Below, in pieces: positions 18,992 to 42,851 of a stretch of DNA of 42,862 nucleotides. The position numbers and the translations under genes are program-made. The notes below the pieces were generated by a model that saw nothing but the letters and a program-made list of their open reading frames with translations, was not told the DNA's origin and searched no databases. Source of the stretch: a virus. The DNA lies in the IMG/VR virus record IMGVR_UViG_3300031857_000416, positions 1 through 42,862 of that record; one strand, written 5' to 3'. The stretch's first letter is position 1. Each line of letters starts with the position of its first letter.

Positions 18992-19242
18992 AAACGGTGA
19001 TTTGAGAGTGTAAAGTAATTGCTTTACCAAGTGGTTTGTTTGAAGTATGAATAAAATACAGGATTTTAGGTACAGTAATAACTGACTAAAATCACAGACG
19101 CTATAGGTTGTGTAAAAATGTGTACCAAAGGATATTGTTGTATTTACAATGTCGGGTATCAAAAATATTCATATTTCAAGGTGCATTTTGGAGTTGAAAA
19201 GTGGTGTGGCAAGTGCTATATTAGTTTTAACAATTTAATAAC

Positions 19243-19266
19243 CCGAGATTGCGAACTCGGTTTTTT
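19243..19266 (+). terminator. Intrinsic terminator
   Basis: CCGAG (19243-19247) pairs with CTCGG (19256-19260), 8-nt loop, followed by TTTTTT (19261-19266). The stem can be extended by AAC/GTT through a one-base bulge. Confidence 0.75.
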
Positions 19267-19287: not shown

Positions 19288-19380
19288 AAGTCTGTTTTTT
19301 GTAGTGGTCGTTTGGTAAATCGCAAAAATCTACCTTACCGCCAAGCGCTCACTACAAAGGGCAGACTTTTTTTGTCTCCC
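19288..19380 (+). ncRNA. Long stem-loop attenuator or structured RNA upstream of the zinc-ribbon gene
   Basis: Arms 19288-19306 and 19350-19368 pair over 19 bp: 16 Watson-Crick and three consecutive G-U pairs. After a 2x2 internal loop a second stem, CGTTTGG/CCAAGCG (19309-19315 with 19341-19347), pairs over 7 bp with one G-U, leaving a 25-nt apical loop. A U7 tract (19367-19373) ends it, as in an intrinsic terminator. A competing hairpin, GGG-C-AGAC/GTCTCCC (19359-19366 with 19374-19380), uses the 3' arm and could act as an antiterminator. The downstream AGAAAGG ribosome-binding site starts at 19381. Confidence 0.65.
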
Positions 19381-25252: not shown

Positions 25253-25606
25253 ATGAGTAATTGGATAAAAGTTGATACAACTTCTAATGAAAATTCTACA
25301 CACGACTTCAAGGTAAATCCTGAAATAACAGGTATCTATGCTGGTCAAAAGACTAACCTAGGTGCTAATGGTTCTACTCTATACGAAGTCAAAACACCGA
25401 CAGGTATCGTATCTTTCTGGGGTTCAACTGTGATAGATAATAAGATGAAGCATGTTCCACTTGGAAACGAAATTCTAGTTAAGTTCTTAGGTGAAGTTAA
25501 AAACGACAAAACCAAAAGAACCTACAAAGATTTTGATGTGTTCCACAAACCAGCATCTAAACCAATGGATGCAGTTTCTTTTGAAAACGATTGGTCTAAC
25601 CAGTAG
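25253..25606 (+). CDS. Probable single-stranded DNA-binding (OB-fold-like) protein (117 aa)
   Basis: A small, beta-rich protein: VNPEITGIYAGQKTNLGANG, LYEVKTPTGIVSFWGSTVID, LGNEILVKFLGEVKNDKTKR and KDFDVFHKP are arranged like strands of an OB barrel. It has its own promoter and strong leader, as expected for an abundant ssDNA-binding protein in a replication module lacking another SSB. It lacks the acidic C-terminal tip of bacterial SSB. Family assignment is by inference, not by a diagnostic motif. Confidence 0.6.
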   Translation: MSNWIKVDTTSNENSTHDFKVNPEITGIYAGQKTNLGANGSTLYEVKTPTGIVSFWGSTVIDNKMKHVPLGNEILVKFLGEVKNDKTKRTYKDFDVFHKPASKPMDAVSFENDWSNQ

Positions 25607-25613
25607 TTTTCTG

Positions 25614-25767
25614 ACCTGGTATTATGATGCCAGGTTACTGTGCAAGTTGCTTATGACTATATATTGAAGGTCATAGGGAGGTAAAAATTTAAACTTTAGA
25701 TTGTCTTTAAACACAACCTTTACTTTAACGCCTCTACTACAACTTGCCCAGTAATTTGGTATCATAA
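25614..25767 (+). ncRNA. Candidate structured RNA / large inverted-repeat element
   Basis: Arms 25622-25649 and 25740-25767 pair over 28 positions: 24 Watson-Crick, three G-U, one U/C mismatch. The 90-nt interior holds TATGAC/GTCATA (25652-25657 with 25670-25675), GAGGTAAA paired with TTTA and CCTC through an ACG bulge (25678-25685 with 25724-25734), and TTTAAA/TTTAAA (25688-25693 with 25706-25711), giving a three-way junction. A competing hairpin, ACCTGGTA/TGCCAGGT (25614-25621 with 25628-25635), is mutually exclusive with the outer stem. No U-tract follows. It may be a regulatory RNA, operator or single-strand replication signal. Confidence 0.6.
25757..25765 (+). promoter_or_regulatory. Extended -10 before the 92-aa gene
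   Basis: TGGTATCAT (TG-G-TATCAT, 25757-25765) ends 6 nt before ATG 25772; no Shine-Dalgarno is visible. Same leaderless geometry as the XRE genes. It lies inside the right arm of the inverted repeat. Confidence 0.45.
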
Positions 25768-25771
25768 CAAC

Positions 25772-26050
25772 ATGGACAAAGTAAAAGAGTTCCAACATTT
25801 TTTAGAAGTTCAACTAGACGAATTAACCCGAAGCATTGTTTTTAATAGAAACCCTATTTCCATTGAATTTCATAAGGGAGATTTTTATTCCAAGATGGTC
25901 AATGAATTTGTTAGACTTAACGATTTACCACAGGAAATAATTAACCCAGACATCCCTAAAGAAGAATTAGTTGAAGTTGCAAAGCAGATTAGAAGATATA
26001 ACCGAAGCAGACACAAGGTTTCAAGGAAACCAAAGTTAAAGCAAATGTGA
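25772..26050 (+). CDS. Hypothetical last early gene (92 aa)
   Basis: A charged, helical protein with a basic C-terminus (RRYNRSRHKVSRKPKLKQM) that could bind nucleic acid, and an acidic middle (LPQEIINPDIPKEELVEVAK). No Shine-Dalgarno precedes the ATG; the upstream extended -10 and the large inverted repeat suggest leaderless, separately regulated expression. It is the last rightward gene, followed by terminators at 26085 and 26236. Confidence 0.72.
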   Translation: MDKVKEFQHFLEVQLDELTRSIVFNRNPISIEFHKGDFYSKMVNEFVRLNDLPQEIINPDIPKEELVEVAKQIRRYNRSRHKVSRKPKLKQM

Positions 26051-26084: not shown

Positions 26085-26125
26085 GTGGGTAGTATTTCGG
26101 GCAGGAACTACCCGCTTTCTTTTTG
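26085..26125 (+). terminator. Intrinsic terminator of the rightward operon
   Basis: GTGGGTAGT (26085-26093) pairs with ACTACCCGC (26107-26115), 9 bp including one G-U, 13-nt loop, then TTTCTTTTT. It lies 35 nt after the last early stop codon. Confidence 0.88.
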
Positions 26126-26144
26126 TACAATAGTACGCCTCCCT

Positions 26145-41058: not shown

Positions 41059-42851
41059 AAGGTAATTCCATTAGAAATAACTACTCTTTTATCTAATTCT
41101 AGTTGAGGTATTTGAGTTGCATGCCATTTAGATTTGAAAAACACTTTATCTACTTTTTCGCATCTAGTCATGTACCACTCACCAGGATTTGCAATATCGT
41201 GTAAATCTACAAAATGCTTTCGTGCCTTAATATTAAAGTCTAAGAAAGCAGGAGTTCTCCAAGAGATAAAGATATTAAACTCATCACTAAAGTTAATCTT
41301 CCAGTACTTTTTGTATTTAACACCATTAATAACTTTGTCTTCAGGAGTATCGCAGTAAACTGTCACGTCATAACCCATTCTGACCCATTCTTCTGACAAA
41401 TAAATTACTGCTGATTCTGAACCACCAATACCTACTTTCAAGTTATCTCCGTTCCATTTCTCAAAATGTGGTCCGTAGAAAGATGCAAAATACACAATGG
41501 ATTTGTCATTATGAACTACGCCAGGTAATTGGTTTGCTATCTTTTTAACAAATTGTTCTGATTCAAATGCAGTTGGGGTTAGTTCAAGCATAGTTCTAAC
41601 TTCATCCCATTTATTGTTTTTAATATAGAAAGTACATAAGTTTAAAAACCCTTGGGCTAATGTTTCTGACTCTTTAAGATAAATAGTATCTTCTAAAAGC
41701 CTGTCTTTAACTAACTCATGTCTTTTCTCAGCCCATTTCAAACAGTCATCTAGTTTCCCCAATTTGTGTGCTTCTTGCCATTTAACAGTTGTATAAAGTA
41801 TTTCAATCTCAAGAGGGGATGCGATAGTTGCTTTAGATACAACAGGACCTAATGTTTCAAATATTTTTATATAGTGTTGGGCTAATGCTAAGTTATTATC
41901 TAATATTAATAATTCAGCAAGTTTTAAATAAGTTGAATGGTTTTGTGGGTAGTAAATAATTGAGTTTTTGTAGTCTTTGATAGCTTCTTTTGTTTTACCT
42001 ATTCTTGATAAAATCATTCCTCTATACTCAAAAGCATTTCCAATCTCTTCTTCCCAACCAGATGCTGGGATATATTTATTTATATAGTCTAATGCTTTTT
42101 CAAAATAATCAGGACCCATATCGTAATAGGTTTTAGCTAAGTAGAATAATGTTCTTGGGTCTTTATAGTTTTCTTCTTTAGCTTGTAGTTCAAGTATTCT
42201 TATATTTCTTTGAAGTGAGGAAAAAGAATCTTCTAATTTTGCAGTATGTACCCATACAAGATTTCTTCCTTCTTCTTTGTTTTGAGAATAAGGAGATAGT
42301 TTAGGATTTTGTTTTGTAGGGATTAGGACTTCGTGAAGATGTGATTTCCATACAAAAGTATTAGGTCTAATAAACCTTTCTCTTTCATGCATAATAACGG
42401 TTTTAGCTACGTTTCCTTTTTCATCAAACAAGTTTGAGTACCAATAAGTGCAATAGATTGCATCTAGGTCTTTTTCTTTTGCTTGTTGTAGTAGTCCTTT
42501 GATTTCTTCTCCACCAATTAAGATGTCGTCATAGTCAGCCCAAGAGATGTAGTCATACTTTTCAGCAGGTACCATATCAAAAGATACTTTTCTTGCTTCG
42601 TTAAATCTAGCAAACTCCCACTTACCTTCTTCCCATTGATGATAAATCTCGGGATGAGTTTCAGGAGAAGTTGAGATTGAATGTCCTCCGTATTTTTTAA
42701 CAAGCTTATGTATTTCGTTATGTTTACCAGATGGACCTGTAACAGCAACATAAACTTTATCAAAATAAGGTGTAAAGGATTTAAGGGATTTTTCAAATGT
42801 TTCTTTTTGGGAATCGTCTTTGATGATGTAGGTGAGAGCTACTTTAATCAT
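41055..42851 (-). CDS. Large multidomain glycosyltransferase: GT-A + TPR + N-terminal half of GT-B (598 aa)
   Basis: Residues 1-205 are a GT2-like catalytic domain: VALTYIIKDDSQKETFEKSL, then EKYDYISWADYDDILIGGEE with the acidic WADYDD metal site (104-109), and HERERFIRPNTFVWKSHLHE. Residues ~218-420 are helical TPR-like repeats (RTLFYLAKTYYDMGPDYFEK; NAFEYRGMILSRIGKTKEAI; QNHSTYLKLAELLILDNNLA). Residues 445-598 are a GT4-type N-terminal Rossmann domain with LKVGIGGSESAVIYLSEEWV and SKWHATQIPQLELDKRVVIS, ending at NGITL where an intact GT4 would continue. Its continuation appears in 39901-40455. The 5' part recurs at the left end of the window. Confidence 0.88.
   Translation of the reverse strand: MIKVALTYIIKDDSQKETFEKSLKSFTPYFDKVYVAVTGPSGKHNEIHKLVKKYGGHSISTSPETHPEIYHQWEEGKWEFARFNEARKVSFDMVPAEKYDYISWADYDDILIGGEEIKGLLQQAKEKDLDAIYCTYWYSNLFDEKGNVAKTVIMHERERFIRPNTFVWKSHLHEVLIPTKQNPKLSPYSQNKEEGRNLVWVHTAKLEDSFSSLQRNIRILELQAKEENYKDPRTLFYLAKTYYDMGPDYFEKALDYINKYIPASGWEEEIGNAFEYRGMILSRIGKTKEAIKDYKNSIIYYPQNHSTYLKLAELLILDNNLALAQHYIKIFETLGPVVSKATIASPLEIEILYTTVKWQEAHKLGKLDDCLKWAEKRHELVKDRLLEDTIYLKESETLAQGFLNLCTFYIKNNKWDEVRTMLELTPTAFESEQFVKKIANQLPGVVHNDKSIVYFASFYGPHFEKWNGDNLKVGIGGSESAVIYLSEEWVRMGYDVTVYCDTPEDKVINGVKYKKYWKINFSDEFNIFISWRTPAFLDFNIKARKHFVDLHDIANPGEWYMTRCEKVDKVFFKSKWHATQIPQLELDKRVVISNGITL

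Follow-up and report, generated by a model that had tools for sequence, protein, structure and literature searches.

Translation of lambda cIII is set by two alternative mRNA structures (Altuvia et al. 1989, as cited in PMC9697208) and is stimulated by RNase III (Altuvia et al. 1987, as cited in PMC5371410). RNase III target sites are known in T7, T3, and lambda mRNA, and in adhE and lambda cIII its cleavage frees ribosome sites that were blocked (PMC5371410). In the leader of the MS2 maturation gene, a transient hairpin competes with a stable cloverleaf, and translation takes place before the closed fold (PMC6733600). For hok, coupled covariation has been used to argue that the folding pathway is conserved (Gultyaev et al. 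1997, as cited in PMC6733600).

The element described here is an intergenic structure of an uncultured tailed phage in which one strand (b) can pair with either an upstream strand (a) or a downstream strand (c). It shares with lambda cIII a DNA phage early gene, a start region held in one of two exclusive folds, and a possible role for RNase III (PMC9697208, PMC5371410). No relation between the two was found in searches of Rfam and of phage records. To our knowledge, lambda cIII is without a 28-bp closing helix and three-way junction, and without an upstream near-copy strand. The likeness to MS2, an RNA phage whose maturation-gene leader has a Shine-Dalgarno sequence (SD), lies in the competition between a transient fold and a very stable, multi-branched leader. 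A folding delay of minutes is reported for MS2, whereas the barrier computed for the present element is only 3-9 kcal/mol. The hok and aapA1/aapA3 toxin mRNAs likewise combine metastable hairpins with a stable closed fold; their 5'-3' long-distance closure was not seen in the element, and an antisense antitoxin is a further feature of that group. The downstream 92-aa product differs from the hok/aapA type in being a predicted three-helix protein with a basic tail rather than a short membrane peptide, and in showing no toxin-like feature. By analogy, MS2 and hok offer precedents for metastable hairpins (PMC6733600). With the RNase III sites of T7, T3, and lambda the element has in common a long intergenic duplex in an early transcript; it differs from them in its conserved three-way-junction interior and its competing hairpin.

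Setting, architecture, and homologues

The window, i.e., the whole stretch of DNA analyzed, is a 42,862-base record of the phage. The early genes occupy ~15.8 to 26.05 kb of the + strand and are flanked on either side by late genes of the - strand; toward the end of the early operon, the element separates a 117-aa gene from a 92-aa gene. A search of 50,697 phage records turned up no DNA or protein relatives of the element region, and the new RNA family comes from a phage lineage without a detected cultured relative. Features are given below, with L001, L002, and L043 denoting homologous contigs.

25253-25606, + strand, upstream 117-aa gene, SSB-like OB-fold candidate; kept as neighbor in L001, L002, and L043; stop codon 7 nt before strand a
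25614-25622, + strand, strand a; 5' half of the competing hairpin and near copy of c; pairs with b (25627-25635)
25622-25635, + strand, strand b; partner is a (hairpin 25614-25635) or c (outer half of P1)
25622-25649, + strand, P1 5' arm, 28 nt; double changes at 12 of 28 pairs in three sequences
25650-25677, + strand, hairpin P2, 9 bp (25650-25658/25669-25677), from minimum-energy folds; three double changes in L043
25678-25734, + strand, P3 (25678-25682/25730-25734) and a weak inner hairpin; one double change
25735-25739, + strand, junction strand UACUA from P3 to P1; identical in all homologues (alignment and covariance-model matches)
25740-25767, + strand, P1 3' arm; its last 14 nt (25754-25767) form strand c, just before the start codon
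25772-26050, + strand, downstream 92-aa gene; product predicted all-helical with a basic C-terminal tail; no SD

The two 28-nt arms of P1 pair at 27 of 28 positions, as had been stated in the preliminary description (24 Watson-Crick pairs, three G-U pairs, one T-C mismatch). P1 is the best long hairpin of the whole window; 200 dinucleotide shuffles of the window all stayed below its score of 54.5, one of them narrowly (shuffled maxima: mean 35.7, sd 3.0, largest 54.0). The fold of 25600-25790 has an energy of -57 kcal/mol (z -4.8), which none of 200 shuffles equaled. The three-way junction of P1, P2, and P3, also proposed before, is present in the minimum-energy fold, and the hairpin at 25614-25635 was recovered as a real competitor for the outer 13-14 pairs of P1. 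No Rfam 15 family exceeded its gathering threshold in the window, and the elements of the window and L043 gave only chance-level miRNA, snoRNA, and rliE matches (E at least 0.15). The element does not read as an intrinsic terminator, P1 being followed by CAACATGG without a T run and no terminator being predicted inside it, nor as a type III toxin-antitoxin RNA, being single-copy (one per record) with no tandem repeat array visible.

Protein and exonuclease searches led to three further IMG/VR contigs with the element, representing two further distinct sequences (L001 and L002, whose elements do not differ; L043); the comparative evidence comprises three distinct sequences only, the window included. 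Protein identity between L043 and the window is 71% for the exonuclease, 44% for the SSB-like protein, and 42% for the 92-aa homologue. A fourth contig (L003) is 99.9% identical across the upstream region and stops before the element. The order of SSB-like gene, element, and 92-aa homologue is common to all homologues, and the same three-way junction is found in the folds of L001 (-58.6 kcal/mol, z -7.1) and L043 (-58.5 kcal/mol, z -6.1). Further searches with the 92-aa, SSB-like, exonuclease, and tail proteins and among cultured phages added only L043; a motif scan for CCTGGT..ATGATGCCAGG in viral contigs gave 36 stretches, with the second arm present only at already known loci; and the element is absent from the records, which are partial, of the tail-gene relatives L046-L050 (~40% identity).

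Covariation and the two exclusive pairings

In ungapped alignment of the arms of the three distinct sequences, 12 of the 28 P1 pairs are altered on both sides with pairing kept. Overall, 97.6% of cells are paired; none of 500 shuffles matched this percentage or the double-change counts, and pairing drops to 32-47% in slid-register controls. Hand-placed alignments of the predicted inner helices showed three double changes in P2 and one in P3 (U-G / U-A / G-C). Arm substitutions are thus compensated rather than pair-breaking, and a covariance model, the check proposed in the preliminary description, retrieved the distant homologue when this was left out: built from the window, L001, and L002 only, it recovered L043 on the + strand at 82 bits (E 6e-19, a rough value owing to shortened calibration), compared with 22 bits on the - strand. 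The three P1 helices, read on the + strand, hold 10 G-U and no A-C pairs, several G-U positions being common to homologues, so that independent events number fewer than 10; two more positions are T-C or C-T mismatches. The G-U pairs had earlier been read as a sign of selected RNA structure, and this count bears the reading out. Because the G-U bias, the strand asymmetry of the covariance model, and the + strand orientation of the flanking genes agree, sequence comparison identifies the selected molecule as + strand RNA, not DNA. The core claim, that of a new RNA structure under selection that takes two exclusive folds, is supported by the homologues, the compensation, the covariance model, and the lack of an Rfam match; as to structure, the element is almost certainly a previously uncatalogued RNA kept by evolution.

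Relative to the window and L001, L043 has CC to UU in b, accompanied by GG to AA in both a and c; at a neighboring position, a and c have both changed from U to C, facing an unchanged G. Both alternatives are therefore conserved by coupled change, b being tracked by a and c at two positions, in what amounts to one lineage split. As a change in b that is matched in two separate strands is otherwise hard to explain, the a:b and b:c pairings are probably both under selection. This is unusually clear sequence evidence for selection on two competing folds.

By energy computation, the closed state is favored over the a/b state by 10.1-10.8 kcal/mol in all three sequences, and in simulated growing transcripts a/b forms first in all three. 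The computed branch-migration barrier for displacement of a by c is 9.1 (window), 6.6 (L001), and 3.0 (L043) kcal/mol, so that a slow folding clock could operate in the window at best; a purely kinetic timer was also considered, and the non-conserved barrier argues against it.

Start codon, proposed role, and rival explanations

The distance from the end of P1 to the start codon of the 92-aa gene is 4 nt in the window, 6 nt in L001/L002, and 0 nt in L043. An SD scan confirmed that this gene is without a convincing SD: the duplex of -5.3 kcal/mol in the window and L002 arises from a bulged match at UUUGGUAUC, and the value for L043 is -1.5. Most early genes have SDs of the AAAGGA/GGAGG type, and most early genes without an SD overlap or abut an upstream stop codon. 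The modeled 117-aa product (OB-like beta, pLDDT 66), with weak SSB/OB-fold matches (best E 0.018), is tentatively SSB-like; the modeled 92-aa product (three helices, basic tail, pLDDT 74) matched no known family in family scans, and its model gave no informative fold match. Either product could be a putative RNA-binding partner of the element.

With its helices, its two exclusive pairings, its + strand sense, its conserved position, and a downstream gene that lacks an SD, the element likely has a cis-regulatory role; of the functions listed in the preliminary description, regulation of the 92-aa gene fits best. We give roughly an even chance to a cis-acting two-state leader on the + strand that governs translation of this gene, off when closed and on in the a/b state. 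In the closed state, b and c would form the complete 28-bp P1 over the three-way junction, 0-6 nt from the SD-less start, and ribosome loading would be blocked. In the open state, b would pair with a, P1 would be cut to its inner half, and c and the start codon would be single-stranded, leaving ~20 nt of single strand ahead of the start codon. Since a/b would form first during transcription and c would later displace a, the nascent RNA would be briefly open and the finished RNA closed unless something intervenes. We infer that closed means off and open means on, and that the likeliest triggers are an RNase III cut in P1 or a bound protein; after such a cut, c would be freed and a/b may shield the upstream mRNA at its 3' end. 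Against such a leader stand the position of the start codon outside P1 in the window and L001/L002 and the conserved interior (UACUA, P2, P3), which simple occlusion does not explain; the closed state is also stable enough that a switch without help would run in one direction only. This makes a compact, testable model of a switch at an SD-less start, in which mutations of a, b, and c predict opposite effects.

The length of P1 (27-28 bp, against a duplex of ~20 bp or more for RNase III) bears on an unlikely alternative, in which the element is an RNase III processing site only: the helix would mark the cut that separates the SSB-like and 92-aa mRNAs, as in T7 early mRNA, and a/b would cap the upstream 3' end. 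The helix keeps its length (28, 28, 27) although nearly all of the inner sequence has been exchanged, as if only length and pairing matter, and RNase III both targets T7, T3, and lambda RNAs and frees blocked ribosome sites in adhE and lambda cIII (PMC5371410); neither the conserved UACUA, P2, and P3 nor a 150-nt interior is needed for such a site, however. Distinctly unlikely is a coupling by loop-out, with P1 as the ON state, in which P1 places the SSB-like stop 1-20 nt from the 92-aa start and terminating ribosomes re-initiate. The summed stop-to-stem and stem-to-start distances (19, 18, and about 1 nt) agree with it, as does the overlap with, or abutment to, an upstream stop in most other SD-less genes of these phages, but to re-initiate there, a ribosome would need to get past the base of a 28-bp helix, and the conserved competing hairpin would be unnecessary. 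We know of no bacterial precedent for a ribosome crossing the base of a helix this long. It is quite improbable that the folded element itself replaces the SD and delivers ribosomes to the second cistron, by a 160-nt loop-out in which stop meets start or by direct ribosome binding, as a bacterial counterpart of an intergenic IRES gated by a.

The compact three-way-junction fold with paired ends and conserved junction would also suit a free-standing trans-acting RNA, host-directed or of packaging type, cut from the early transcript; its constant position directly before the same gene in all homologues, and the lack of a promoter conserved among them, of tandem repeats, and of an Rfam match make this improbable. 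A signal at the DNA level (inverted repeat or cruciform, single-strand origin, mobile-element ends, or a promoter in the arm) is very improbable indeed. The inverted repeat does exist in the DNA, and TGGTATCAT in the right arm resembles an extended -10, as had been pointed out for the window, and is present in L001/L002 too; the -10 is missing in L043, so that it is no conserved part of the element and a promoter in the right arm was rejected. The repeat occurs nowhere else in the searched records. The strand bias of the G-U pairs and the strand asymmetry of the covariance-model scores for L043 were the grounds for rejecting a DNA inverted repeat or replication origin, and the single-strand replication signal suggested earlier is disfavored, since only on the + strand are the tolerated non-Watson-Crick pairs G-U. 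The preferred reading remains a two-state leader that regulates the 92-aa gene.

Further features of the record

A short ORF with an SD, MLNANFLNPILQGA, lies inside the element of L043 (7547-7591). A leader peptide in the loop was considered from this SD-ATG ORF (7547) and a TTG ORF of the window (25701), and was rejected as probably not conserved, the frame being interrupted by a stop in L001/L002. Downstream of the 92-aa gene, a terminator-like hairpin (GGGTAGT...ACTACCC followed by a T run) is located at 26087-26126 on the + strand, with an equivalent hairpin of other sequence in L001. Between the convergent operons, a near-consensus sigma-70 promoter (TTGACA-18-TATATT; 26174-26145, - strand) points antisense toward the 92-aa gene; L001 also shows a similar TTGACA-spaced site. 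Two near-identical spurious ORFs, one per record end (340-618 and 42518-42796, - strand), reflect two similar glycosyltransferase-type gene regions or end redundancy.

A second long stem of 29 positions is present in the early operon, at 19288-19368 (+ strand) in the window and 1878-1955 in L043. It pairs at 28 of 29 positions in the window and 27 of 29 in L043, with nine double compensatory changes between them, and has no Rfam match. Its loop, CTACCTTACC, is able to pair with upstream GGTAAAGGTAGG; a terminator-like hairpin (~19242-19266) lies directly upstream, and a T run, then an SD and ATG, follow on its 3' side.

The motif TTTATTATTNNTAANNNATG occurs at constant spacing at late-gene start codons on the - strand of the window, with nine matches at no more than two mismatches compared with 1.0 expected.

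9977, 13477, 27494, 29788, and 32441, - strand, exact sites of the motif
10994 and 36591, - strand, near matches

The motif looks like a late promoter of leaderless or near-leaderless mRNAs, or a start signal without an SD; it is found at late starts of L045 and L043 too.
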